The notes below the pieces were generated by a model. The model was not told the DNA's origin. It did no database searches and saw only the letters and a program-made list of their open reading frames with translations. The position numbers and the translations under genes were made by a program. Shown one piece after another: positions 16,384 through 35,536 of a DNA stretch of 50,778 nt. The first letter of the stretch is position 1, and every line of letters begins with the position of its first letter. Source of the stretch: Phytoactinopolyspora halotolerans (GTDB taxonomy: Bacteria > Actinomycetota > Actinomycetes > Jiangellales > Jiangellaceae); assembly GCF_010550675.1 (NCBI RefSeq), contig NZ_JAAGOA010000033.1:1-50778 (forward strand), written 5' to 3'.

Positions 16384-18762
16384 CTACCCACCACCGCCGG
16401 CGGCAAGCGGCTGTGCCGAACGTCGGCGACGCACCAGCACGTACCCACCGACGGTCCCGGCCGCCAGCAGTGCGCCGATGCTCACCAGGATCCACGGTGC
16501 GCTGTTCGCCCCGCCGCCGGCCTCCTCGTTCTCGGCGGACGCCGGTGCCGGGTCCTGGTGGATCCGGGGCAGCACCGAGACCTGATGGCCGTGGGAGAAG
16601 TACAGGTTGCCGTGGCCGTCCAATGCGACCGCGGCAGCGTGGGTGTCGCTCAGTGTCGTGATGATTCCATCCGGTCCGATCTGCCGGATCGATCCGCCCG
16701 CCCCGAGGTACACCGTTCCGGCCTCGTCGACGACGAGATCGCGGACGTGAAGGAACACCTCGGTCGCCGGAACGTCCTCGGTCGGGTCGTCGTAAGCCGA
16801 GCTTCCCGATCCAGCGATCGTCGTGATCACGCCGTCGGTCGTGACGGCACGGATCCGGCGCTCGCGACTGTCGAGGATGTAGAGGGTGCCATCGGCTCCG
16901 ACGTCGATCCTGGACGGCATGTCCAGCTCGGCTTCAGTGGCGGGCCCACCATCGCCGGAGTACCCCTCGGTCCCGGTGCCCGCGACCACCCGCACCATCC
17001 CGTCAAGACCGATGTGGAAGACCTGATTGAGCCGCGAATCGGAGACGTACAGACTTCCGTCCGGTGCGACGGCCACATCCTCGGGGCTGCCGAAAGCCAT
17101 GTACGTGGCGTCGATTCCTGTCTCGGCGTCGTCCTCCTCGTCCGGCGCGATCCCGATGCCTGCGACCGTGGTGATCAGGCCCGCGGGACTCACCTTTCGG
17201 ACCCTGCCGTCACTGTAGCCCGCCATGAACAGCGTCCCGTCGGGTGCGACGTCGATACCGTGGACCATGCTCAGCTGGGCTTCGGTCGCCGACCGGCCGT
17301 CACCCGCCATCGGTCCTGGTCCCCTAGGCGAGCCGCCATGGTCACCGCCGCCGGCGATCGTCACCATGGTGCCGTCCGGTTCGATCGCCCGCACGCTTCT
17401 ACTGTCGTCATCGAGCACGTAGACCGTTCCGTCCGGCCCGACCGCGAGGTCGTCCGCACGAGACAACCGCGCGTCGGTCGCCGGTCCGCCGTCTCCGGAA
17501 GAGCCGTCCGTGCCGGTCCCCGCGACCGGTGTGACGGCATGCGGAGCCGAGTCGGCCCACAGGTCGGGCGCCTCGGCCGAGGTGTCCGGCGCGTCGGAGC
17601 CGGCCGCACTCCCGACCAGCGGAATGCGGTGCACTTGGGCCCGGTCACCGTCGCCGACATACAACGCGCCGTCCGGCCCTACCGCCATCCCGGTGGGCTC
17701 GTCGACGTACGTGGGCAGGCTGTCGATGGTGCCGTCCGGCGAGATCACCCGGATCACGTGGTGTTCGGTGTCGGACAGATAGATGGTTCCGTCGGCGGTG
17801 GTGGTCATGTTGTACGGGAAGCACAGTTCGGCGTCCGCTGCAGGTCCGCCGTCGCCGGTGTAGCCGCACTCCTCGCCACCGGCGATCGTGGTGATCACAC
17901 CGTCGGTGTCGATCCGACGGATCCGGTGACTGGGGATGTCGTCCTCGCTGGCGTTCAGCCTGGTGAGGTCTGCCACGTAGATGTTGCCCTCGGCGTCGAC
18001 CTCGACGTCCATCGGACGGGTGAACGACGCCTCCACCGCCGGTCCACCGTCCCCGCTGGACGCCTCCGCCTCACCGGTGCCGGCGATCGTGGTGATGATG
18101 CCCTCGGAGTCGACCCGCCGGATATACCCACCGGCGTCCGCGATGTAGATCTCGCCGGCGTCGCCGACGGCGACATCGACGGGGCTCTCAAGCTGAGCGC
18201 TCGTGGCCGGACCACCATCCCCGCCGTACTCATACTCGCCCGTTCCGGCAACCACAGCCGGTCCTCCCCCAGGTTCGACGCGCAGAACCTGGCCGACATA
18301 GGCGTCGGCGATGTACAGCTCGCCCTCCGGACCGGTGGCGATACCGCTGACAGCAGCCAGCCCGTCCGGTGTGATCTCCACGTCGTTGCTCTCGGCATCC
18401 TCGCGCAGCCCGCCGGCCACGGTACTGATCGTGCCGTGCGGGTCCACCCTGCGGATGTACGTGCCTTTCTCGTTGGAAGTCGTGCGAGTGGCGATGTAGA
18501 GATTGCCGGCGTCGTCCAGCGCGACGTCGCGCACCTCGCCGAGCTTCGCATCGACAGCCGGGCCGCCGTCACCGGAGTGACCCTCCTCGCGGGTACCCGC
18601 TACCGTCTCCAGCGGGCCTGGTTCGGCCGGCGGCTGCGCCGCGACGGGAGAACTGGCAGGAACGGCCGCGACGGCGCCTTGCGTGGCGGTTCCGAAGAGG
18701 AGGGCAGCAACCGATGACAAGGTGAAGAGAATGGCTCGTGTCACGGGAGGCGAGTATCGCAC
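16384..18762 (-). CDS. Secreted, membrane-anchored NHL-repeat beta-propeller protein
   Basis: A 792-residue protein with an N-terminal signal peptide (about 1-33, ending GAVAAVPA), about ten to twelve NHL-type repeats, and a C-terminal membrane helix followed by Arg-rich residues (WILVSIGALLAAG then VRRRRS). Each repeat follows the pattern TxAGTG...GDGGPA..A.L..P.D.AV...G.LYIAD...IR.I..DG.ITT, enough for two six-bladed propellers. The topology places the propellers outside the cell, where they would bind proteins or glycans; no catalytic motif is seen. A same-length paralogue with a frameshift lies at 33157-35536, and the two share about 45 bp of upstream sequence. Confidence 0.9.
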   Translation of the reverse strand: MRYSPPVTRAILFTLSSVAALLFGTATQGAVAAVPASSPVAAQPPAEPGPLETVAGTREEGHSGDGGPAVDAKLGEVRDVALDDAGNLYIATRTTSNEKGTYIRRVDPHGTISTVAGGLREDAESNDVEITPDGLAAVSGIATGPEGELYIADAYVGQVLRVEPGGGPAVVAGTGEYEYGGDGGPATSAQLESPVDVAVGDAGEIYIADAGGYIRRVDSEGIITTIAGTGEAEASSGDGGPAVEASFTRPMDVEVDAEGNIYVADLTRLNASEDDIPSHRIRRIDTDGVITTIAGGEECGYTGDGGPAADAELCFPYNMTTTADGTIYLSDTEHHVIRVISPDGTIDSLPTYVDEPTGMAVGPDGALYVGDGDRAQVHRIPLVGSAAGSDAPDTSAEAPDLWADSAPHAVTPVAGTGTDGSSGDGGPATDARLSRADDLAVGPDGTVYVLDDDSRSVRAIEPDGTMVTIAGGGDHGGSPRGPGPMAGDGRSATEAQLSMVHGIDVAPDGTLFMAGYSDGRVRKVSPAGLITTVAGIGIAPDEEDDAETGIDATYMAFGSPEDVAVAPDGSLYVSDSRLNQVFHIGLDGMVRVVAGTGTEGYSGDGGPATEAELDMPSRIDVGADGTLYILDSRERRIRAVTTDGVITTIAGSGSSAYDDPTEDVPATEVFLHVRDLVVDEAGTVYLGAGGSIRQIGPDGIITTLSDTHAAAVALDGHGNLYFSHGHQVSVLPRIHQDPAPASAENEEAGGGANSAPWILVSIGALLAAGTVGGYVLVRRRRSAQPLAAGGGG

Positions 18763-19026: not shown

Positions 19027-21819
19027 TCATGTCGTCCCGGGCGTCGCTCCGGAGCGATGAATGGCCCTGCTGTCGTGCCCGAGATAGGCGTCGGCGACCG
19101 CGGGATCGGCGCTCACCTCATCTGGCGTGCCGGCCGCGAGCTGACCTCCGTGTACCATCGCCACCAACCGATCGCTGATCCCCATGATGAGCGGCATGTC
19201 ATGCTCGATCACCACCAACGTCAGGTCGAGCTGCGCTTTCAGACTCATCAGCGTTTCGCCCAGCGCCTCGGTCTCCCGCTGTGCGATGCCGCTGGACGGC
19301 TCGTCGAGCAGTAGCAATCTCGGCTCGAGCGCCACCATGCAGGCCAGCTCGGCGATGCGGCGGGTACCGGTGGACAGCTGCCGGACCGGCACATCCCGGA
19401 AACTCTGCAGCCCCATCAGATGGATCACTTCGTCAGCGCGTGCCGTCTTCCGTCGGTCCGCGCCGGACAGCCCGGCGATCGCCGCCATCGACCGGGTGGG
19501 ATGCGTCCGTTCCAGCGCCACCATCACACACTCGGCGACGGTCATGGTCGGGAACAGCGCGGCGTCCTGGAACGAGCGGACCAGCCCGAGCTGCGCTCGT
19601 CGTTCGGGCCCATCACCGGTCACGTCGTGTCCGCCGAACCGGACGCTCCCCGAATCGGGCCGCACGAACCCGCCGATCAGCTCGAACAGGGTGGTCTTGC
19701 CGGCACCGTTCGGCCCGATCAAGCCCACCGTCTCGCCCGGTTGGACGGTCAACGACATCCCGGCCACCGCTTGCACACCGCCGTAGCTCTTGTGGAGATC
19801 GCGGACCACCAGCAGCGGCTCCCTTACGGTCGCGACGTCCCGGTCAGCCCGCACGGCGCTCGTCGCGACCCGGAACGTCGCCCGGCCCGGCGGCGTCTCA
19901 GGCTCGCCATGGGTGGCACCCACAGTGTCCACAGCTGGCACGCCGTATACCCGCGCGAGCCCAGCGACCACTCGGTCCCGCAACGCAGTGGCCAGCTGCG
20001 CCAGGCCACCCGGAACGTAGAGAATGAGGATCAGCAGACCGAGCTGAGTGGCTGCCAGGCCTGCTGCATCCAACGGGACGAAGGCCGGCAGCCCCAATAC
20101 CAGCAGCGCGCCGAGAATCGGACCGTAAAGCACGGCGACCCCGCCCACCACCACCATGACCACCAGGTCGATGCTGGCTGTCACCGGGAATGTGCCCCCA
20201 TCGATGCGCATCAGGGAATGGCCGTAGGCGGCGCCACCCAAGCCCGCGATGAACCCGCTCAGCAGGTACCCCCGCAACTTGACCAGCGACGAGCGGACCG
20301 AGAACGCTCGTGCGCATTCCTCGTTGTCCCGGACCGCTCGCAGGAGTCGTCCGAAGCCGGACCGCCGCGCGTTATGCGCCAGCCACAGTGCGACGAGGAG
20401 CAGGCCTAACGTGAACCAGTAGTACTCGGTCCCAGTACGCAGCGCGTCGCCACCCGGCAGGACCGGCCGCCCGGGATCGCGACCGGATCCCAGCATGCCG
20501 TCGAACACGGTGGGAGCGGCCACCGCGAACGCGAGCGTGGTCACGGCGAGCATCAGCCCGCGCACCCGCAGCGACGGCAGGCCCAGCAACACCGATACGC
20601 CGCCCGCCGTCGCTCCGGCAGCGAGCAGGCCTGTCGGAAAACTCCCAGTCGCGCCGGCGACGACCGCCGACGCAAGCCCACCCGCGCCCGCCACGGCGAA
20701 CTGACCCAGGGTGAGCTGCCCAGCCAGACCGGTCAACAGTCCGACGGCCAAGCCGACAATCATGAAGGCGATGATCCCGTTGATGCGATCGGCGTCCGAC
20801 TCCGACGCGACGAACGGGATCGTCGCCGCCAGCACGACCGCCCCTGCGGCGACGACGTGGCCAAGGTGGCGAACCAGCCACCGATCCTGCAACGCAGGCG
20901 GCAACGGGCGCACTGCCTGCACCGCCGCCCACGAGCCTTTCTCCTCCTCGCGGCCGCCTCGCCGGCGCTGCAGCAGCAACGCGACCAGGATGATCACCAG
21001 TAACGCCACGTCAGTCACACCGGCTCGGGGATGGTTCCACAGCAGCACCTGCTCCACCACCCCCAACCCCACCCCGGCACACAAGGCCGCTGGGAGGCTG
21101 CTCATGCGCGCGAGCACCGCACAGGCCAGCGCCCGGAGCAGGAGATTCGGCCCGAACGAGTCGCCGGTTGTGAAATCCCGGGCGGCCTGGGTCAGGATCG
21201 CGGACAGCGCGCTCAGCACACCCGCGATCCCCCAGGTGAGAGCCGACATGCGAGCCGCCGGGATGCCGGCCATCCGGGCAGCGTCCGGGTTCGACGACGC
21301 GGCGCGCACGGCGAGCCCGAAGCGAGAGCGGCGGAGGAAGACGGCGATCCCGATCACCGCAGCGGGCGCGAGGACGATCATTCCGGTATACGCGGAGTCG
21401 ATATGCAGCGCGCCCAGGTCGAACGTGGGCAGCCCGGGCGGACTCGGGAAGTACGAATCCGACGCGAGACCGAGCGCGTCCGGATTCAGCGCCGCCCCGA
21501 GCATGACCAGGAACTGCCCGACACCCAGGGTGGCGACCACGATCATCAGCCGCGGCGCGTGCCGCAGCCGACGCACCACCACCGCCTCGACCGCGGCGCC
21601 GATCACGCCGGCGAGAAACAGCGCCAGCGGCAACATGACCCAGTACGGGAGACCGAACCGGACGACGGCGAGGCCGAACAGGATCGCCGCGAACGCCCCG
21701 ACCTGGCCGTGCGCGAAGTTGATCACTCGGCTCGTGCGATAGATCAAGACCAGTCCCACGCCGAGCAGCCCATACATCAGGCCCATGATCAGCCCGAGGA
21801 CGACGGGAGCCGCGCTCAC
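19027..21819 (-). CDS. LivH-LivM-LivG fusion: branched-chain-type ABC transporter permeases and ATPase in one chain
   Basis: A 930-residue polypeptide. Residues about 1-290 are a LivH permease (YGLLGVGLVLIYRTSRVINF, AHGQVGAF); about 320-620 a LivM permease (GLLTGLAGQLTLGQFAVAGA, GYLLSGFIAGLGGAAYGHSL); about 660-930 a LivG ATPase. The ATPase has Walker A GPNGAGKTT 702-710, Walker B LLLLDE about 835-840 and H-loop IEHD; its signature is LSTGT at about 815 instead of LSGGQ. Hydrolysis of ATP would drive import of a ligand delivered by the binding protein encoded at 24612. GTG 21819 overlaps the stop of the MFS-LivF gene by 4 bp. LivH, LivM and LivG are normally three genes; M-G fusions are known, the triple fusion is unusual. 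Confidence 0.93.
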   Translation of the reverse strand: MSAAPVVLGLIMGLMYGLLGVGLVLIYRTSRVINFAHGQVGAFAAILFGLAVVRFGLPYWVMLPLALFLAGVIGAAVEAVVVRRLRHAPRLMIVVATLGVGQFLVMLGAALNPDALGLASDSYFPSPPGLPTFDLGALHIDSAYTGMIVLAPAAVIGIAVFLRRSRFGLAVRAASSNPDAARMAGIPAARMSALTWGIAGVLSALSAILTQAARDFTTGDSFGPNLLLRALACAVLARMSSLPAALCAGVGLGVVEQVLLWNHPRAGVTDVALLVIILVALLLQRRRGGREEEKGSWAAVQAVRPLPPALQDRWLVRHLGHVVAAGAVVLAATIPFVASESDADRINGIIAFMIVGLAVGLLTGLAGQLTLGQFAVAGAGGLASAVVAGATGSFPTGLLAAGATAGGVSVLLGLPSLRVRGLMLAVTTLAFAVAAPTVFDGMLGSGRDPGRPVLPGGDALRTGTEYYWFTLGLLLVALWLAHNARRSGFGRLLRAVRDNEECARAFSVRSSLVKLRGYLLSGFIAGLGGAAYGHSLMRIDGGTFPVTASIDLVVMVVVGGVAVLYGPILGALLVLGLPAFVPLDAAGLAATQLGLLILILYVPGGLAQLATALRDRVVAGLARVYGVPAVDTVGATHGEPETPPGRATFRVATSAVRADRDVATVREPLLVVRDLHKSYGGVQAVAGMSLTVQPGETVGLIGPNGAGKTTLFELIGGFVRPDSGSVRFGGHDVTGDGPERRAQLGLVRSFQDAALFPTMTVAECVMVALERTHPTRSMAAIAGLSGADRRKTARADEVIHLMGLQSFRDVPVRQLSTGTRRIAELACMVALEPRLLLLDEPSSGIAQRETEALGETLMSLKAQLDLTLVVIEHDMPLIMGISDRLVAMVHGGQLAAGTPDEVSADPAVADAYLGHDSRAIHRSGATPGTT

Positions 21820-24047
21820 GCCTGGCTCACCTCACCCGCGGCCGCACCTTTCAGGAACACCGCGCGCAGCAGGTCCTCCCGTGCCAGCAGGTCAGCGCTC
21901 GGGCCGTCGAACCGGATCTCTCCCCGCTCCATGAAATACGCATGACCGGCCAAGCTGAGCGCGATGTTGACGCTCTGCTCGACGAGCACCACGGCGGCCC
22001 CGTCGGCATTGATGCGCCGCACCATGTCCAGCAGCTCCCCCACCACGACGGGAGCGAGTCCGAGCGAGAGCTCGTCGATCAGCAGCAGCCGCGGTCGCAA
22101 GATCAACGCCTTGGACAACGCCAGCATCTGCTGCTCGCCCCCGGATAAGGTGCCGGCGTGCTGCGTTCGCCGCTGGGCCAGCTGCGGGAAGCGGTCGAAA
22201 CACTCGTCGACGATGCGTGCCAGCTGGCGTCGGCCGCGCGCCGCCGTGTACCCGAACGCCAGGATGTTCTCCTCCACGGTCATCCGATCGAATACACCAT
22301 GACCACCGGAGATCTGGGTCATCCCGAGCGAGACACGACGCTCGGCGTCGATGTAGGTCACGTCGTGACCGCGGAACCGGACCGATCCACGGCTGGGGAG
22401 ACCGACCCCGGAGATGACGCGCAGGAGCGTCGACTTGCCGGCACCGTTCACGCCGAGCAGCGCCACCATCTCCCCTTCGGCGACCGTGAAGTCGACACCG
22501 TGCAGGACCTGGACCTGCCCGTACGCGAAATCGACGCTCCGGCAGGCCAGCAGCGGCAGACCGGACCCTTCCGCGGTCATCTCCTTCAGCTTCTCGTCCT
22601 CGACGACCTCATCGATCATGCGCTCCAGGTCTTCGCGGATGAACCGTCCCGCACTGCTGATCACCAGGGCTCCGAGGACGCCCGGTACCGCCATGCCGAC
22701 CATCGCACCGGCGATGCCGAAGCGTTCCTCCATACCACCGAGGAACAGCGCGCCGACGAGACCGCCGGACGCCACTGCCATTCCGGTCAGCGCACCGAGA
22801 TGTGGACGCATCACCGCCGGCGTGATCGACATCATCGCGATGCCGAGCGCGGGACCGAGAACACTGACGATCGCGGATGACACGCAGAACAGTGCGGCCA
22901 TCACCGGAAAGCTCGGGGCCAGGGCTCCGACGACGATGCAGCACAGCGCCACTGCGAGTAACAGGCCGGTATTGCGCAGTAGCACGGCTGGATTCTTCCG
23001 GAACTGTTTCTCTCCCCGGCTGCCGTAGACGGCCAGGGCCACGATCGACACGCACGCCTGCGCGCCGGCGAACAGAGCGCGCTGGGTGGGGTCGAGGTCC
23101 CACTGGCGGTCGAGGAAGAACGCGAAGAAGACCGCCATCGGCACGGTCAGGACACCGAAGATGGAGAAGCCGATCAGCAGTCGCCTCGTGGTGCGGATCA
23201 TCAGCAAGCGACGGCAGACCTCCCAGAACCGCAGAGACACATCCGGCTCGTGGATGCCGTGGGTGTCGGGACGCAAATCGGTTCCGGCCTGGTGATCGCG
23301 GTCACGGACGGCGGCACGGACCCGTTGGGTGTCCCACGCCCCGAACCCCGGATCTCGCAGCCTTAGCGCAGCGATCGACACGGCCAGCGAGATCAGGCCG
23401 AGGACGACGAAGACGCCACGCCAGGTCAGGTTGAACCAGCCCGTGCACGCGACGACCAGCAACGGAGCAGCGATCGCTCCAGCCGAGCCCACGGCGGCGT
23501 ACGCGGACAGCACCCGCACACGCGCCTGCGGGTGGTACGAGTCCATCAGCAACGGCGTGTGCAAGGTGGTCACGCTGCCCGTGGTCAACCCGTTGACGAC
23601 CAGGACGAGCACCAGCCCGGCCAGGGACACCACGAACCCGGTGGCAAGAGTGAACACACTCCAGATGAAGGCCGTGACCAGGCATAACAGCGCCCGGCGG
23701 GCCTTATTCTGACATAGCGCTGCGATCGGCAACGGGGATACCGCGGCGGCGAACCCGGAGACCGCCACCACGGCGGCGATCGTTCCCACGTTCAGCCCGA
23801 GCGTGGCGCTGATCTCCGGTGTCAGAACGCTGAACACGAATCCGTGGAACGTGTCCACCACGGATAACAAACCGAGCGCCACCAGTGGATACAGGCGCAG
23901 GTCTCGCTCGCGGAGCACATCGAGGAACCGGCCGGTCTCACGGTCGCCGGCCACGCCGAGCTGAACCAGAGCCCGGTCACGGACACGCTGCCGGGTGTGG
24001 TCGATCTCGCTGATCGGATCGACTGATCTGCCGTCGGATTCACTCAT
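21816..24047 (-). CDS. MFS transporter fused to a LivF-type ABC ATPase
   Basis: A 743-residue chimera. Residues about 50-470 are a complete major facilitator domain with about twelve hydrophobic helices (for example RLYPLVALGLLSVVDTFHGF, QARVRVLSAYAAVGSAGAIA, ALTGMAVASGGLVGALFLGG). After an acidic linker (about 470-495), residues 496-743 are a LivF-type ATPase with Walker A GVNGAGKST 532-540, signature LSGGEQQ 634-640, Walker B LLLIDE 654-659 and VEQS at the H-loop position, as usual in LivF. The two halves are in one uninterrupted frame with no codon-use break. The operon has no separate livF, so this ATPase probably completes the importer, tethering an MFS pump to it. Overlaps both neighbours by 4 bp. 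Confidence 0.93.
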   Translation of the reverse strand: MSESDGRSVDPISEIDHTRQRVRDRALVQLGVAGDRETGRFLDVLRERDLRLYPLVALGLLSVVDTFHGFVFSVLTPEISATLGLNVGTIAAVVAVSGFAAAVSPLPIAALCQNKARRALLCLVTAFIWSVFTLATGFVVSLAGLVLVLVVNGLTTGSVTTLHTPLLMDSYHPQARVRVLSAYAAVGSAGAIAAPLLVVACTGWFNLTWRGVFVVLGLISLAVSIAALRLRDPGFGAWDTQRVRAAVRDRDHQAGTDLRPDTHGIHEPDVSLRFWEVCRRLLMIRTTRRLLIGFSIFGVLTVPMAVFFAFFLDRQWDLDPTQRALFAGAQACVSIVALAVYGSRGEKQFRKNPAVLLRNTGLLLAVALCCIVVGALAPSFPVMAALFCVSSAIVSVLGPALGIAMMSITPAVMRPHLGALTGMAVASGGLVGALFLGGMEERFGIAGAMVGMAVPGVLGALVISSAGRFIREDLERMIDEVVEDEKLKEMTAEGSGLPLLACRSVDFAYGQVQVLHGVDFTVAEGEMVALLGVNGAGKSTLLRVISGVGLPSRGSVRFRGHDVTYIDAERRVSLGMTQISGGHGVFDRMTVEENILAFGYTAARGRRQLARIVDECFDRFPQLAQRRTQHAGTLSGGEQQMLALSKALILRPRLLLIDELSLGLAPVVVGELLDMVRRINADGAAVVLVEQSVNIALSLAGHAYFMERGEIRFDGPSADLLAREDLLRAVFLKGAAAGEVSQA

Positions 24048-24631
24048 CGGCCGTCCTCATTCGGGAGGGTGAACTCCGCATACCATGCGCTTTCCCCGAT
24101 CCGGCGCCCCTCGGAGTCCAATAGCACGATGGTCACCGTGTGCACATCGGAACCGTGGTCGGTGCCGATCCGCGGGATCGAGTCGAGCGTGAAGCTGGTG
24201 TCGGTTGTGGTGTAGGCGCCGCGAATCGCGAAGTACTCGCTGTCCGGGCAGGACCGGATCCGCACGCACTCCGGGTCGTCAGCGGCCAGCTCCTCTAGGG
24301 TCTCGCCCGGCGGGATCGGCGCGCGGTCCACGAACACGCCGAAGAACCCGGCATCCGGCGAAGCGGGAGCCGATCCCGGAGACACGACCCGAAAGTCGTC
24401 GATCCGCCATCGCACGGAGACCGGCAGCTCCGCCGAGGCCCGGTTCTCTGGTGCGAGCACGGTGAGCCGGTCGTCCTGAACGAAGAGCAGGTCGCGCCCG
24501 CCGCATGCCGGGACGGCCAGCGCGAGCAGCGCCAGCGCCGCGCAGCCCGCCCGCCGCGAGCCCCTCGCCCCCGTTCTGCGTGCGCGTCCGGTCGATACCG
24601 GACCCGCCGCCTCACTCGACGCTGATCGCAT
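24044..24631 (-). CDS. Lipoprotein of unknown function in the Liv-type operon
   Basis: A product of about 195 residues with an Arg-rich start, a hydrophobic segment and a lipobox-like LALAVPAC, so probably anchored outside the membrane. The mature part is a small beta-rich domain (LPVSVRWRIDDFRVVSPGS, GVFVDRAPIPPGETLEEL, TSFTLDSIPRIGTDHGSDVH) resembling Ig-like or ligand-clasp domains, with two Cys in CVRIRSCPDSEYF that could pair. ATG 24631 or ATG 24640 are the candidate starts; both overlap the end of the binding-protein gene. It ends with a 4-bp overlap with the MFS-LivF gene. I do not recognise the family; an accessory ligand-binding or gating role is inference from position. Confidence 0.8.
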   Translation of the reverse strand: MRSASSEAAGPVSTGRARRTGARGSRRAGCAALALLALAVPACGGRDLLFVQDDRLTVLAPENRASAELPVSVRWRIDDFRVVSPGSAPASPDAGFFGVFVDRAPIPPGETLEELAADDPECVRIRSCPDSEYFAIRGAYTTTDTSFTLDSIPRIGTDHGSDVHTVTIVLLDSEGRRIGESAWYAEFTLPNEDGR

Positions 24632-25952
24632 CGCCGGCATACCGGAAGCACTCGCACGCGTCCGCGAACTCCAGGTACATCACGCTGGCCACGCCGTCCC
24701 GATGGGCTTCGTCGTAGCGGGTATCCCAGGTCGACGCGGATGAGAACGAGTCACCCAGGCCGGAGATCCCCTCCATGAAGGCATGTCCGCTTGCCGGTTC
24801 CTCCGCCGCCTCGAGCGCCGCCTTGATCAGGAACAGCTGGTCACAGCGGGACAGCATGTCGGCCTCGTCGGCCGCGGTTTCCGGGTGGAGGTTCTGTGCA
24901 GCCAGGATGTCCAGGCATTCCTGCCGCGCAGGAGGTTGCATGGCTGCTTCCCGGTCGGCGACATCCCGCGCCGGGCTGTAGCCGGCGCCCGCCGCACCGG
25001 AGAGCTGCTCGACAGGGACGCCCGACTCATGCAGGCTGGCTGGATAATCCCAGCTGGAGATCGCGTATCGGGGGCGGTAGCCCTGCTTCTGCGCGTCGAT
25101 CATGAACTGCGGGGAACCGCCGAGAAAGATCACATGGTCCACGCCGGCGTCGCGGAACTTGAGGACGGCGCCGGCCACCTGCGCCAGCGTGTCAGCCACG
25201 TCCTCCGGCTTCTCCGGACGCGTGATCAGTGCCTCCTCCGCGATCGTCAGCCCTGCTTCCTCGAGAGCGGGTTCCAGTCCGTGGTCTCGCGCGTCGACGT
25301 ACTCCGGCGCGTCGAAGCTGAAGAACCCGATCGTGGCGTCCGGTTGGAAGAAGCCATGACCGGCCAGCACCTCCACCTGCGTGCGCATCAACCTGGTCAG
25401 GTTGAGCGTGGGTGCGCTCACCAGGTACGAATCGTCGTCGAACGTGGACGCCGGTGCGGACGCCGTGGTCACCACGTGTGGCACGCCCTCAGCCGCAAAG
25501 CACCTGCGGGTGATGTCGGTATCTCCCGCCGCCGCGAGGAACACCGGACGGTCCTGGGTGAAGTCGGTGCACAGCGCCTGTTCCTCTACGTCGGCCGAGG
25601 TAGCGTCGCGCTGGATCCGGTGCCAGACCGGCACGATCTCCCGCCCGCCGATTCCGCCGTCGTCGTTGATGTGCGCCACCAGAGCCTCCACGTACGCTGC
25701 CGTGGGGTTGGATGCCAGGTCAGGTTCATCCGTCGCCCGCCCGTTGCCTTCCCCGAAGTACTCGAACCCGATCCGAACCTCGGAATCGGTGATGCCCGAC
25801 GTCCAGGCATCGACGGGATCGCCGGTCGCCTCCGGCGTAGACGACGTGGTGGTGCCGCAAGCCGCGGCTACCAGCACCACCGTGCCGGCCAGCGCCGCCG
25901 TGGCGCCCGTGGTCAGAAGCCTGGGGTGCGCAACTCGCTGCTCGGTGCTCAT
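24612..25952 (-). CDS. Liv-type ABC substrate-binding lipoprotein
   Basis: A 446-residue periplasmic-binding-protein-fold lipoprotein, lipobox VAAAC with Cys32. The mature protein starts ITDSEVRIGFEYFG and has ALVAHINDDGGIGGREIVPV, FLAAAGDTDITRRC, and VDHVIFLGGSPQFMIDAQKQ, typical of type I (LivJ/LivK-like) binding proteins for amino acids, amides, peptides or urea. It would capture the ligand for the LivHMG and MFS-LivF proteins encoded downstream. The ATG overlaps the stop of the S9 peptidase gene (ATGA), so binding protein and peptidase are coupled. Ligand residues cannot be read with confidence. Confidence 0.93.
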   Translation of the reverse strand: MSTEQRVAHPRLLTTGATAALAGTVVLVAAACGTTTSSTPEATGDPVDAWTSGITDSEVRIGFEYFGEGNGRATDEPDLASNPTAAYVEALVAHINDDGGIGGREIVPVWHRIQRDATSADVEEQALCTDFTQDRPVFLAAAGDTDITRRCFAAEGVPHVVTTASAPASTFDDDSYLVSAPTLNLTRLMRTQVEVLAGHGFFQPDATIGFFSFDAPEYVDARDHGLEPALEEAGLTIAEEALITRPEKPEDVADTLAQVAGAVLKFRDAGVDHVIFLGGSPQFMIDAQKQGYRPRYAISSWDYPASLHESGVPVEQLSGAAGAGYSPARDVADREAAMQPPARQECLDILAAQNLHPETAADEADMLSRCDQLFLIKAALEAAEEPASGHAFMEGISGLGDSFSSASTWDTRYDEAHRDGVASVMYLEFADACECFRYAGDAISVE

Positions 25953-28108
25953 CGCCGTGGGTCCTTCCGTGTGGTGGTGTGCACGGGCTCATCAAGCGCC
26001 TGGGCGGCGGCCCTGGCGCGCATGGATCGTTTCCATTCGTCGTAGCGCTGCTGCTTCACCCGATCGGTGAGCGGGACGTCGCGGAGCCAATAGTCGAACC
26101 AGGTGACATCGCGCCGGTAGTCGTCCGCGATGAGCGCCACCTCGTCGGTGACGTGTCCGGTGCGGGGGTATACGACGTACTCCATCGGGACGCCCCGATC
26201 GTGCAGAGCGTTGGCGAAGATCGCCGCCTCCATCGCCGCCGGCGACAGCTCACCGCTTTCGATCAGCACCGGGGTGTGGATGCGATGCACGTGGTGCAAC
26301 GGGGACTCCGCGAGAATGGCATCGCGCTCCGCAGGTTCGAACGGCGAGCCGCGGCCCGTGTTCTCCCGGCACCGCGCGATGTTATCCGGGCTATCCCACT
26401 GGAAGGCCATGGTGCGCAAGGTGTCCACCGCGCCCTCGTGGAAGGCCGCGGCCTGAAACCTGTCGCTTCGGGTCAGCCCGTACGCCAGCAGCAGCGCACC
26501 GTAGCTGTGCCCCATGACGCCCATCCGCTGTGGATCCGCCCAGCCCTGCTGGATCACCAGGTCGACGCCGCCCATGGCGTCGCGCCAGGGCTCAGCGAAC
26601 TCCGCGTCTCCGGCGGCGATCGCCCGGCCGAACGTCTCCCCGAAGCCCGGGCGGCCACGCGTGTTGGGCACCAACACCGCGTAGCCGCGAGCGGCCATGG
26701 CCAGGACGGGAAAGGCGTAGCTGCCGAATGCGGCCGGCACCATGGTCGGTCCGCCGACGAGTTCGACGAGCAAGGGGTACCGACGGCCGTCCGCATGGTC
26801 CGGCGGAAGCATCAGCAGCCCGTGGATGTCGAATCGGTCGTCGGCGCTGCGCCAGCTCAGATGCCGCACGCTCGGCCGGATACGGTCGGCGAGATGTCCG
26901 TTGAGCCGTGTCACGGGCCGTGGCGAGGTCGAGTCGAGGTCTGCGACGCACACCTCCTGCGGATCCACCGGACTCTCCCGCACGAACGCCACCCGCCCGG
27001 TGGACGATGCTGAGAACGACGAGTGCCAGTGATCCCCGGGTGGCGTGACCTGCACCGGGTCGCCTTCTCGCAGCGGAACGCGAAAGAGGTGCCGTCCCAG
27101 CCGGTACGGGTATTCGACGAACATCGCGGACGAGTCAGCGGACCAGAAGATGTTCCCGGCGTCGAAGAGCCGCTCCTCGAACCCCCGCGCCGGATAGGTC
27201 AACGCGCTTCCGTCCGGCCGGATCACCGCGGGCACTCCGCCCACGGTCCACGTGTGCTCACCCCGATGTGAGACGAACGCGATCCACTCGCCGTCGGGCG
27301 ACCACACCGGATGCTCGTCCGCGCCAGGCTGATCGAGGCACGGTTCCAGCTCTCCGGACGCCACGTCGACGATCATCAGGTCGGACCGAGAGTCGGCAGC
27401 CGGCCCCGTGTGCTGGGTCGAACCCGCGACCACCAGCCTGCGCCCGTCCGGCGACCAGTCGAATCCGGTGACGTTCAGCGTCCGCGGCCCGAGCTGACTG
27501 ACCCGCCCCGTTTGGACATCGAGCACGCACAGCGACTGAACGGGTGGCGGCACCTGCCATCCCAGCGTGGATCCACGGGCCAGGTCGATCTCGATACCGT
27601 GCCGCACGTCGTCGTCGAGATACGAACCCTCAGGTGCCAGCAGCGGGTGTGACGGCACGTTGCCCTCATCGGCGCCCCGCACGAACGCGATCAGTCTGCC
27701 GTCCGGTGACCATCGCAGCACCGAAGAGCCCACTCCGGTCACGACCGCGCCTGAGCCGATGGCGAAGTCCTGCTGACCGCCGTCCACGTGGAGAAGCCGG
27801 ATACGACGCGCCGGCGCACCCGGCAGGACGTAGGCCACGCACGTCGAGTCCGGACTCCAGCACGGGCCGAGCACGGCATGCGGATGCACGCTGAACTCGT
27901 GCGACGTCAATGCGCGAGCCTTGCCGACGGCGATGTCGACGGTCCACAGGTCGACACGGTACCGGTTCTCCGCTGGGAAGCCCTCCCGGCGACGGAACAC
28001 CACCCGGCGCCCGTCCGGCGAGATCGCCACTTCCGGTGAACCGTTCGACGATTCCGCGATCGTGACCGCCCGGAGCAGGTCCTCCGTCTGGATCGGCCTG
28101 GCGCCCAC
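25949..28108 (-). CDS. S9-family peptidase (acylaminoacyl-peptidase/prolyl oligopeptidase type)
   Basis: A 719-residue cytoplasmic protein. Residues about 1-420 form a WD40/TolB-like beta-propeller (repeated W-SPDG motifs); residues about 450-690 the alpha/beta hydrolase domain with GHSYG and nucleophile Ser535, and His652 in YPRTGHVTDE. At the place where the catalytic Asp is normally found in a HGxxD motif this protein has ESGELSPAAM, so Asp appears replaced by Ser622. GTG 28108 has GAGGAG upstream. It heads the transporter operon, 28 bp after the GntR gene and overlapping the binding-protein gene by 4 bp, which suggests it cleaves the imported compound. Confidence 0.93.
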   Translation of the reverse strand: MGARPIQTEDLLRAVTIAESSNGSPEVAISPDGRRVVFRRREGFPAENRYRVDLWTVDIAVGKARALTSHEFSVHPHAVLGPCWSPDSTCVAYVLPGAPARRIRLLHVDGGQQDFAIGSGAVVTGVGSSVLRWSPDGRLIAFVRGADEGNVPSHPLLAPEGSYLDDDVRHGIEIDLARGSTLGWQVPPPVQSLCVLDVQTGRVSQLGPRTLNVTGFDWSPDGRRLVVAGSTQHTGPAADSRSDLMIVDVASGELEPCLDQPGADEHPVWSPDGEWIAFVSHRGEHTWTVGGVPAVIRPDGSALTYPARGFEERLFDAGNIFWSADSSAMFVEYPYRLGRHLFRVPLREGDPVQVTPPGDHWHSSFSASSTGRVAFVRESPVDPQEVCVADLDSTSPRPVTRLNGHLADRIRPSVRHLSWRSADDRFDIHGLLMLPPDHADGRRYPLLVELVGGPTMVPAAFGSYAFPVLAMAARGYAVLVPNTRGRPGFGETFGRAIAAGDAEFAEPWRDAMGGVDLVIQQGWADPQRMGVMGHSYGALLLAYGLTRSDRFQAAAFHEGAVDTLRTMAFQWDSPDNIARCRENTGRGSPFEPAERDAILAESPLHHVHRIHTPVLIESGELSPAAMEAAIFANALHDRGVPMEYVVYPRTGHVTDEVALIADDYRRDVTWFDYWLRDVPLTDRVKQQRYDEWKRSMRARAAAQALDEPVHTTTRKDPRR

Positions 28109-28136
28109 TCCGAGCTCCTCTCACCGTCGCCCGTGC

Positions 28137-28973
28137 TCAGGACTCGCTGGACGGGCCGCGGGTGGCGCCGTCCGCGGTCGCGCTCGCCGGATCCAGCAGC
28201 ACGGCCCCGTCTGGGTCCGTCGCCTGATGGGGAAGAGAGGACCGCAGCACGCCTGTCCCGTCGCCGCCGAGCAGCTCCTCGAGCAGCCGACCGGCCACGC
28301 CCACGTGTTCCCGCGCGGCCCGTGACGCCTCTTCCGGATCCCGAGCCACGATGGCGTCCAAAAGCCTGCGATGCTCGACTTGCGACGCCTGCACCCGGTT
28401 CTCCGGCCACTCCACGAACTCGAAGGCCTCCGCCGTCCGCGCCCGCGCCGTGCGCAGTGTGTCCGCCACGATCGGCAGATCGACGCTGCGCGCCAAGAGA
28501 TCATGGAATTCCTTGTCGAGCGGCCGGCAGGCTTCCCGGGTGCGCTCGAGCAGCATCTGTTCGATCAGCCACCGTGCCTTCGCCGCGCCCTCCTCGGCCA
28601 GCCCGACGGTCGCCAGCCGGTGTGCCACACCGACCTCCAGCATCTCGCGCATGGCGGACATCTGCAGGATCTCCGCGCGATCTCGCCACACTCGGGCACG
28701 GCGGACGTCCGCGTTGCTCACCGACAGCGGTGCGACCCACGCACCACTGCCGCGACGGACGTGCACGCGGCCCCATCCTTCTAGTACGCGCAGCGTTTGG
28801 AGCGCAATCGGCCGACTCACGCCGAGCAGCTTGGCGATGGCGTCGGCCGAAGGGAGCCGCTCGCCGGGCTGGAACTCGCCCAGGTCCAGCATCTGCACCA
28901 TCGCCGCGCACGCCCGTTCCACGGCGGTCAGCGGACGCTGCCCGGACGCGGACTGGCCGGATGCACTACTCAT
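28137..28973 (-). CDS. GntR-family regulator with FCD domain
   Basis: A protein of about 278 residues. The N-terminal winged helix (ERLPSADAIAKLLGVSRPIA, TLRVLEGWGRVHVRRGSGAW) is followed by an FCD ligand-binding domain (MREMLEVGVAHRLATVGLAE, DKEFHDLLARSVDLP, EHRRLLDAIVARDPEEASRA) with His positions suited to metal binding. A Pro/Ala-rich tail of about 40 residues ends the protein. ATG 28973 lies in a 16-bp palindrome; ATG 28985 is an alternative. It is first in the operon and is likely the ligand-responsive repressor of the peptidase and transporter genes. Confidence 0.9.
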   Translation of the reverse strand: MSSASGQSASGQRPLTAVERACAAMVQMLDLGEFQPGERLPSADAIAKLLGVSRPIALQTLRVLEGWGRVHVRRGSGAWVAPLSVSNADVRRARVWRDRAEILQMSAMREMLEVGVAHRLATVGLAEEGAAKARWLIEQMLLERTREACRPLDKEFHDLLARSVDLPIVADTLRTARARTAEAFEFVEWPENRVQASQVEHRRLLDAIVARDPEEASRAAREHVGVAGRLLEELLGGDGTGVLRSSLPHQATDPDGAVLLDPASATADGATRGPSSES

Positions 28974-29030
28974 GCTCCAGAGCATGGACGAGCGCTACGC
29001 CACAAGTCAATAGTGTTTACTTGTTGACTT
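28971..29030 (-). promoter_or_regulatory. Dyads at the start of the GntR-transporter operon
   Basis: CATGCTCCAGAGCATG 28971-28986 is a perfect palindrome with 7-base arms covering the gntR start codons. Further upstream AAGTCAA 29004-29010 and TTGACTT 29024-29030 are exact reverse complements with a 13-bp spacer, nested with CAAGT 29003-29007 and ACTTG 29019-29023. TTGACT on the minus strand (29010-29005) could be the -35. These are the only strong dyads in the 228-bp gap to the divergent phoD gene and are the best operator candidates. Confidence 0.5.
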
Positions 29031-33156: not shown

Positions 33157-35536
33157 TTAGTCGGTCGGAGGCGTCCGCGTCGAACGCCGCCGCCGGACCG
33201 CGTAACGGGCGACCAGACCCGCCGCCAGCAGAACGCCGATGACCATCGCCCACCACGGCGTGCCGGCCCCGTCCTGGTCGTCATCGGAGGATGCCGGCTC
33301 CGGTGCAGAGCGTTCACTGACCTTGTGCAGTACGGAAACCTGAGAATCGTCGATCTGCGTGAAATACACGTTGTCCGAGCCGTCCACCGTGATGCCGAAG
33401 GCATTGGCGTCGTCCCCGGCCAGCGTCGTCATGATTCCATCGGGTCCGATCGCCCGGATTGCGCCATGACTGGTGAAGTAGACCGTCCCGGCGTCGTCAA
33501 CGACGAGATCGCTGGCAGTGAAGTAGACATCTGTGGCCGGTACGCCACGAGGATCGTCGTCGTAGTTGCTGGCCTCATACGTCTCGTTTCCACCGATGGT
33601 GGTGATCACGCCGTCGGTCGTAACAGCACGGATCCGGAGCCTGCGGCTGTCGAGGATGTAGAGGGTGCCATCGGCGCCGACGTCGACGCCGGTCGGCTCG
33701 TCGAGCTCGGCCTCGGTGGCGGGCCCTCCATCGCCGGAGAAGCCGGCGGACCCGGTCCCAGCCGCGATCTGCACCGTCCCATCCTGGCCGATGTGAAAGA
33801 CCTGGTGATCGAAAGAACTCACGACGTACAGGCTTCCGTCCGGGGCGACCGCCACGTCACTGATGTGGCGTAACGCCGCGTCCGCGGCTACGCCGCCCGC
33901 AGCCGCAGCGCTGCTCTCATCCGGTGGTTGCACGGTGACACTACTGATCACGCCCGTAGTACTGACCTTCCCGGACCCGGCCGTCGTCGAGGCCGACCAA
34001 GAAGAGCGTGCCGTCGGAGGCCACGTCGATGCCGGTAACGAAGCGCAGTAGGACCTCCGTCGCCATGCGACCGTCACCCTCCATAAGCCCTGGTCCTCTT
34101 ACCGAGCCCACCGCGTCACCGCCTCCGGCGACGGTCGTGATCGTACCGTCCGGTTCGATCACGCGTATGCGTTCATTGCCCGCGTCGACAACGTAGAGCG
34201 TGCCGTCAGGCCCGGCGGCGACGGCCTTCGGACGGAGAAACTGCGCATCCGGAGCCGGTCCGCCGTCGCCGGAGAACCCTTCGATCCCGCTGCCCGCAAC
34301 CACAGTGACGAAGCCAGGGACCGCGTCGGCCAATAAGCCGGGCGCGCCGGGCGCGGTCTCCGGCCGGTCTGGGTCGGGACCCGCGTCGAGCGGGATCCGA
34401 TGGACCTGAGCCTGCTTGCCGTCGCCGACATACAACGCCCCATCCGGGCCGATGGCCAGCGCGGACGGATCGTCGATATACGCGGGCAGACTGTCGATGC
34501 TGCCGTCCGGCGAGATTATCCGGATCTGGTGGTGCTTCTCGTCGGTCAGGTAAACGGTTCCGTCGGCGTCCACCGTCAGCGCGGTGGGGCGACACAGCCC
34601 GGCGTCGGCCGCAGGTCCGCCGTCGACGATGTAGCCGCACGCCTCACCACCGGCGACCGTGGTGATCACCCCATCGGCGTCGATCCTGCGGATCCGGTGG
34701 CCGGGGGCATCGTCGCTGTCGTCGGCGATCCCGAACCTGGTCAAGTCAGCGATGTAGATGTCGCCGTCGGGACCGACCTCGACATCCATCGGAAGGGTGA
34801 GCGACACTTCCGTGGCCGGCCCTCCGTCGCCGGACGCCTCCGCCTCACCCGTGCCGGCGATCGTGGTAATGATACCGGCGGCGTCGATTCGCCGGATGTA
34901 TCCGCTGACGTCGGCCACGTAGAGCTCCCCCTCCTCGCCGACAGCGACAGCGACCGGCACGTCGAGCTGGGCGCTCGTCGCAGGGCCTCCGTCCCCGCCG
35001 TGTCCGTGCTCGCCGGTCCCGGCGACCACGGTCGGTTCTCCGCCGGGGTCGAGCCGCAGGACCTGGCCGAAGTCCGCGTCGGCGATGTACACCTCGCCCT
35101 CCGGGCCGGTGGCGATGCCTCGGACAGCCGCCAACCCGCCGGACCTGACGTGGGGGGTGTGGTCCTCGTTCTCGACGTGTGGCGCGCCGGCCACGGTGCT
35201 AATCGTTCCGTCAGGGTCGACCTTTCGGATGTAGGCATTCTCGTTGTCGGAAGTAACGCTGTCGGCGATGTACAGGTTGCCGGCGTCGTCGAACGCCACA
35301 TCGCGCACCTGGCCGAGTTTCGCGTCGACGGCCGGCCCACCGTCACCGGCGTGACCGAGCTCACCCGTTCCCGCCACCGTCTCCAGGGGACCGGGCTCGG
35401 CCACCGGCTGCGCCGCGGCTGGCGCACGGGCTGAGGCAGCCCGGACGGCGCCCGGCGCGACGGTGCCCATGACGAAGACGGTGCATAGCGACAGGGTGAG
35501 GAGGAGTGCTCGTATCACGGGAGGCGATCGTCGCAC
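33157..35536 (-). pseudogene. NHL-repeat protein gene with a single-base frameshift
   Basis: Two frames join into one homologue of the 792-residue NHL protein at 16384. The first (35536 to 33941) has the signal peptide and the N-terminal repeats and breaks after LVGLDDGRVRE; the second picks up KVSTTGVISSVTV and runs to a C-terminal membrane helix and Arg cluster. Removing one C of the triplet at 33970-33972 restores GRVRKVS, as in the paralogue (GRVRKVSP), and gives a product of exactly 792 residues. Both halves keep good codon bias, so the shift is recent or a sequencing error. Function would match the paralogue: an extracellular, membrane-tethered beta-propeller. Confidence 0.88.

Follow-up and report, generated by a model that had tools for sequence, protein, structure and literature searches.

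Do six adjacent genes on the minus strand of a Phytoactinopolyspora halotolerans contig, one of which joins a carrier of the major facilitator superfamily (MFS) to the ATPase of an ATP-binding cassette (ABC) importer, encode a single transport system, and what would such a system carry? The contig (NZ_JAAGOA010000033.1 of assembly GCF_010550675.1) was analysed over its whole stretch of 50,778 nucleotides, referred to here as the window. The importer core of the cluster is a recurring variant of the Liv family that is undescribed in the literature searched (we found no description in the open-access literature, outside which most subscription papers lie), and the six-gene unit itself is local. 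The novelty lies in the captured MFS carrier and an accompanying lipoprotein, not in the peptidase encoded beside them. We put the chances at about even that this core is a HAAT/Liv importer of peptide-like cargo, in which a Spinster-derived MFS carrier, permanently fused to LivF, works as a subunit.

The open reading frame (ORF) list and Pfam matches confirm six minus-strand ORFs at 19027-28985, given here from 5′ to 3′:

28137..28985, minus strand: GntR regulator with an FCD ligand domain (Pfam FCD 54.4 bits, GntR 41.9 bits)
28109..28136, minus strand: gap of 28 bp between the regulator and peptidase genes (ORF coordinates)
25949..28108, minus strand: S9 (prolyl oligopeptidase) family peptidase (Pfam Peptidase_S9, 98.2 bits)
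24612..25952, minus strand: binding protein of Peripla_BP_6 type with a lipobox-like N-terminus (34.0 bits, above the 31.7 cut-off)
24044..24640, minus strand: conserved lipoprotein, here LIPO, with an invariant lipobox Cys46 (alignment of 22 sequences; no family model)
21816..24047, minus strand: MFS-LivF fusion, a Spinster-like MFS at residues ~50-485 followed by a LivF-type ATPase at ~497-735 (Pfam MFS_1 and ABC_tran; NCBIfam)
19027..21819, minus strand: LivH-LivM-LivG fusion, here LivHMG (Pfam BPD_transp_2, PF02653, in two permease stretches, with ABC_tran and BCA_ABC_TP_C; NCBIfam)

The initial annotation had described these genes as coupled by overlaps, and the coordinates bear this out: downstream of the 28-bp gap the overlaps measure 4 bp (peptidase/binding protein), 29 bp (binding protein/lipoprotein, provided the lipoprotein starts at the ATG at 24640), 4 bp (lipoprotein/MFS-LivF) and 4 bp (MFS-LivF/LivHMG). 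A codon-usage gene caller returned the same six genes with uncertain start sites, beginning the lipoprotein at 24460 and, with another training set, MFS-LivF at 23954. Within the P. halotolerans genome, this place alone matches the whole fused protein, the other 149 listed places being matches to the ATPase part.

To map the distribution of the fusion we used residues 1-494 of MFS-LivF, a stretch that is mostly MFS, as the query. As regards a possible horizontal arrival, the G+C content of the operon equals that of its surroundings, yet the fusion was found in none of the 21 other genomes of the family (1/22 with its own genome, E ≤ 1e-50). Matches occurred in 13 of 393 genomes of a class sample (16 places, E ≤ 1e-30), in 13 of 396 genomes of a phylum sample (18 places, E ≤ 1e-25), and in 5 of 12 and 3 of 35 genomes of two further families; these samples overlap, with P. 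halotolerans and other genomes recurring across them. Once its own locus is set aside, the sampled Actinomycetota genomes contribute 33 distinct loci (15 + 17 + 1), to which a full-length query adds one in Amycolatopsis jejuensis (L009) and one on an Embleya plasmid (L076), for 35 loci besides P. halotolerans. The Embleya plasmid, at 33% identity, was the single record returned by the full-length plasmid search. Because the MFS-LivF architecture recurs in these 35 loci, the fusions are no sequencing artefacts, and the fused system is sparse and patchy in Actinomycetota. A scan of genome contigs with short patterns of the P. halotolerans MFS-LivF gave 17 loci with a full-length protein in one (L009), a result that does not exclude other phyla; among the 16 remaining loci, the six checked (L010, L011, L012, L021, L024 and L025) have no MFS profile match.

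Each of the 33 loci that the MFS query detected encodes an MFS followed in frame by a LivF-type ATPase, and no unfused MFS appeared among them at the query thresholds. Across the 36 aligned proteins, P. halotolerans included, Walker A is present in every one and the signature LSGG[EQ]Q in 32 (deviating in L061, L064, L073 and L076); the LivF half of P. halotolerans has both Walker A and LSGGEQ. A LivH/LivM partner accompanies the fusion at 35/35 other loci (truncated in one case where the contig stops), and the MFS-LivF gene overlaps the LivH gene by 4 bp in 16/36. The claim that one Liv-type importer is condensed here into few polypeptides is supported. The partition of its modules varies: five proteins (L067, L069, L070, L071 and L073) carry MFS, LivF and LivG in a single chain of ~950-1000 aa beside a LivH-LivM chain, L053 has a separate LivG next to LivH-LivM and MFS-LivF, and the remaining 30 of the 36, P. 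halotolerans among them, pair LivHMG with MFS-LivF. In this comparison the LivHMG of L047 is cut by the contig end, the gene call that joins LivHMG to the lipoprotein in L063 was not trusted, and L066 was called with other training. That the same five modules are joined up differently between loci, as is typical of parts of a single complex, argues for one machine. A binding protein related to that of P. halotolerans lies within the fetched stretch at 22/35 other loci; for the P. halotolerans protein itself, nothing in the PDB matches by sequence at E ≤ 1.

The lipoprotein is characteristic of one part of this family. LIPO is encoded at 24 of the 36 loci (23 of the 35 outside P. halotolerans), in 21 of these 24 within 25 bp of MFS-LivF (using the P. 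halotolerans ORF start at 24640). The exceptions are L051, L052 and L062, with LIPO just past LivHMG, or 6.5 kb away in L062. A profile of 22 LIPO sequences searched against 387 genomes of the class found 12 genomes with 16 places, 15 of them at a fused locus; as most of these loci had supplied the profile, recovery there is expected, and the informative part is that nothing was found elsewhere. The sixteenth place is a weak second LIPO match (52 bits) on contig C1 of genome G126, ~10 kb from the fused locus and outside the fused operon. Conversely, MFS-LivF has 16 places in the class, and LIPO stands at 15 of them, the place in genome G103 being without it. The 24 LIPO-bearing proteins occupy one side of a single branch of the MFS-LivF tree (support 100/100), so that LIPO presence changes once on the tree, a count as low as this arising in 0/500 shuffles. 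No Pfam or NCBIfam model matched the P. halotolerans LIPO; when the 22 members were searched against Pfam, six families matched weakly, among them DUF4399 in three members, with no model above threshold, and the LIPO profile drew two chance-level lectin matches from the PDB and no credible relative.

The same branch separates two forms of the MFS half. A profile of 34 sequences has its closest solved MFS in 6e8j (E 8e-32 over profile positions 49-435), which we take to be HnSpns; the 6e8j chain carries D41, R42, D87, R91, R122, E129 and D142 at the numbers used in the HnSpns paper. In that paper D41 and E129 act as proton switches, E129 being the master switch, R122 is a buried arginine nearby, and D87, R91 and D142 make up the charge relay of motif A (PMC9440201). 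The site equivalent to D41 in transmembrane helix 1 (TM1) is acidic in 11 of 12 proteins from loci without LIPO and in 0/24 from loci with it; the corresponding counts are 7/12 and 0/24 for R42, 11/12 and 0/24 for the TM4 arginine R122, and 11/12 and 0/24 for Asp at the motif-A site D87 (one Glu). The equivalents of R91 and D142 are kept in 36/36. An Asp at position 152 shows the opposite pattern, present in 21/24 LIPO-bearing proteins and in none of the others. L065, the sister of the LIPO branch and itself without LIPO, has the D41 and R122 equivalents and is missing those of R42 and D87. In our reading of these sequences, the Spinster proton drive would have been lost at the very node at which LIPO was gained. 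It is possible, though not probable, that an ABC importer took over a complete proton-driven transporter, which, fused to one ATPase, lost its proton machinery as the lipoprotein was gained and is now an obligatory ATP-coupled subunit. This would be a hybrid class of transporter whose chassis stays constant while its cargo is swapped among relatives.

These residues also bear on the proposal that the MFS part releases a product. A two-way system would import by the ABC part and export the hydrolysis product by the MFS, with the fusion co-locating both transporters. In its favour are the union of the two in one protein, the retention of most proton-coupling residues in the proteins without LIPO, and positions 65 and 163, which are Asp in 34/36 and His in 33/36. 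We nevertheless consider it unlikely, because P. halotolerans and all 23 other LIPO-bearing proteins are without the equivalents of D41, R42, R122 and the motif-A Asp; this loss from all 24 makes proton-driven product export doubtful for the branch to which P. halotolerans belongs.

Spinster proteins move lipid-like compounds (compare PMC9440201 on HnSpns), and the MFS might instead be a channel, energised by LivF, through which an amphipathic cargo (lipid-like, N-acyl) passes, with LivHM helping or importing something else. Acyl-CoA genes around some loci without LIPO (judged by eye) fit this view. LivH and LivM accompany the fusion always, which speaks against a channel. We know of no ABC ATPase that docks on an MFS, and we regard the channel as quite improbable.

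Under the preferred reading of a Liv importer with an MFS subunit, the binding protein would bring the substrate, LivH and LivM would form the pore, and LivG and LivF would hydrolyse ATP. The MFS of the P. halotolerans branch would be an integral accessory subunit and not an independent proton-driven exporter; it may serve in assembly, in gating, or in handing the substrate from the lipoprotein to LivHM or back. The cargo of the clade would most likely be a small peptide or an N-acyl amino acid, perhaps with D-residues, and in P. halotolerans the S9 peptidase would cleave it in the cytoplasm, with the GntR regulator as the presumed repressor.

Among the fused-transporter loci, the peptidase and the regulator occur at this one alone. 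The initial annotation had proposed all six families as one conserved system and a comparison of neighbourhoods anchored on MFS-LivF; in that comparison the S9 peptidase occurs at 0/35 other loci and GntR likewise at 0/35, and it is the lipoprotein (23/35) and the binding protein (22/35) that travel with the transporter. Judged by the refuting condition of that annotation, a fused transporter found in most genomes without these partners, the six-family system is rejected for the peptidase and the regulator and is not refuted for the lipoprotein and the binding protein. Ser535 and His652 of the S9 protein align with the triad of solved relatives; Glu620 is the candidate third residue by reading, although HMMER sets it two columns off the Glu of AtxE2. 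The protein is probably an active serine peptidase, from Ser535 and His652, with an uncertain acid, and no signal peptide is evident by eye. No relatives were found at E ≤ 1e-90 in 392 other genomes of the class or at E ≤ 1e-55 in 345 other genomes of the phylum. A plasmid search gave 11 records, the best at ~30% identity. Two Rhizobium plasmid S9 genes at ~30% identity (L074 8419-10536, L075 8527-10536) both have cytochrome P450 and VirK-family genes beside them, and no Liv genes were seen near the Rhizobium plasmid S9 genes in the 2 of 11 records viewed.

Because S9 and GntR are missing at all other loci, the neighbourhood could be a product of chance: the importer would then be a conventional Liv system in condensed form, taking up amino acids (branched-chain or other), with S9 and GntR as unrelated passengers. 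The genome is dense, and the spacing of the S9 gene to the genes on either side, 28 bp and 4 bp, suits this explanation; the 4-bp overlap that couples S9 to the binding protein gene and the wealth of other peptide and amide enzymes in the closest clade count against it, and it seems to us unlikely. A salvage route for lasso peptides, with S9 as an AtxE2-like isopeptidase acting on an imported threaded peptide, is very improbable. The best solved relative is another S9 protein, 8wt1 (E 3.7e-34), and AtxE2 (5txc, E 1.4e-25) comes second, in an alignment of low identity that runs through the C-terminal extension. The lasso isopeptidase model is the top NCBIfam match, but its score of 183.6 bits is well short of the 400 required, and the missing signal peptide argues the same way as this shortfall. 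A GntR-like regulator also occurs in known isopeptidase clusters (PMC9266682).

Evidence on the cargo comes from the genes around the fused transporters. We selected enzyme families from a first batch of loci (L009, L042-L056) and ran phmmer with single sequences to look for them among all non-core genes. As controls we took 40 stretches of carrier genomes, the same ones or others; many of these stretches are shorter than the loci. Two 'S9' labels in L064 (PD40/TolB-like propellers) and the L009 enolase (dehydratase-like) were dropped before counting. P. halotolerans falls in a clade of nine (support 96/96), and peptide, amide or D-amino-acid enzymes occur at 8/8 of the other clade loci (22/81 non-core genes), compared with 3/40 control stretches (2/21 where ≥12 genes are present) and 4/504 control genes. 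The wider clade has them at 10/13 loci (27/125 genes). A second batch of eight LIPO-type loci shows the excess by genes (8/74 vs 4/504, p 1.6e-5), and in a label test on the tree, made before the L064 and L009 labels were dropped, 17 positive proteins required 8 changes, as few as in 5/500 shuffles. The families include an OSBS/NSAR-like enolase (7 loci), M20 (5), M19 (4), a class C beta-lactamase fold (6), Amidohydro_3 (L042, L045), S15 (L045), an M55 D-aminopeptidase (L057), GNAT (3 loci) and a PucR regulator (6). Neighbour types differ outside the clade, so the cargo would vary between relatives. For the P. halotolerans clade a peptide-like substrate is likely from this neighbourhood, which supports in spirit the peptide-like cargo first proposed, by way of enzymes other than S9. 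D-amino-acid compounds are an attractive guess for the clade, and would be an extrapolation for P. halotolerans, since only S9 stands there.

Several observations weigh against a peptide importer with an MFS subunit. Seven of the eight clade loci come from the batch used to choose the enzyme families, and by loci the second batch shows no excess (2/8 vs 3/40, p 0.19). Little is seen outside the clade: other LIPO loci have 5/110 genes at 3/10 loci and loci without LIPO 2/143 genes at 2/12, and the neighbours there resemble acyl-CoA, amidohydrolase-2 or sugar genes. The pairing with S9 is seen once, and the binding protein is sometimes not adjacent to the fused transporter genes. The loss of proton-coupling residues is a single, unreplicated event on the tree; the E129 equivalent is present in 0/36, so the proteins without LIPO may also not run the HnSpns cycle, and transport via other residues, such as the conserved Asp65 in TM1 and His163 in the buried region, is possible. 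AlphaFold models were too poor to use, both for MFS-LivF (pLDDT 46, its MFS part showing 12 long helices) and for LIPO with two sequences (pLDDT 54, mostly strands).

Other genes near these transporters were also recorded. A secreted family of ~330 aa (L046 1268-2266) with no Pfam match lies by the importer in L042, L044, L045, L046, L047, L054, L056 and L058, often accompanied by tandem small membrane proteins that likewise have no Pfam match. The fused importer of L049 (6637-16874) lies by M81 (MlrC), FAD oxidoreductase, cytochrome P450 and arginase-family genes. In the P. halotolerans window, two similar secreted proteins at 16384-18762 and 33941-35470 share repeat-rich N-termini and the motif AQPxAEPGPLETVAGT, and one of the pair lies directly 3′ of the operon.

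If the preferred reading is true, Actinomycetota have brought together ABC importers and MFS carriers, which usually solve membrane transport separately. The forms before and after on the tree (12 proteins with most proton residues, 24 without) would make a change from secondary to primary energising testable, and the family would offer a handle on a lipoprotein without a model and on importers of peptide-like or D-amino-acid compounds.

Compared with known systems, the core is like the HAAT/Liv importers (LivJ-LivHMGF) in its LivH, LivM, LivG and LivF modules and its Peripla_BP_6-type binding protein, and unlike them in having H, M and G in one chain, F joined to an MFS, and an added lipoprotein; its best matches are LivF-like and LivG-like, far under the HAAT/Liv equivalog cut-offs (LivF 192.4 vs 441, LivG 205.3 vs 362). 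The peptidase resembles AtxE2 and other S9 peptidases in its propeller, alpha/beta-hydrolase and triad Ser and His, and AtxE2 also in the C-terminal extension; it differs from the lasso isopeptidases in falling below their NCBIfam equivalog cut-off. The N-succinyl route, which turns D-amino acids into their L-forms, combines a GNAT transferase, N-succinylamino acid racemase (NSAR) and a hydrolase. Seven relatives' loci recall it with a KLK-motif OSBS/NSAR-like enolase by M20 (4/7) or GNAT (3/7), the two of these seven proteins that were scanned both scoring above the menC_lowGC_arch cut-off; no such genes lie beside the P. halotolerans operon by eye. The racemase is named in PMC8142540. From Spinster/HnSpns the P. 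halotolerans MFS half differs in its fusion to an ABC ATPase and in having His, Gly, Gln, Leu and Thr for D41, R42, D87, R122 and E129, none of the five being kept, and the likeness between them lies in sequence kinship and in the equivalents of Arg91 and Asp142.

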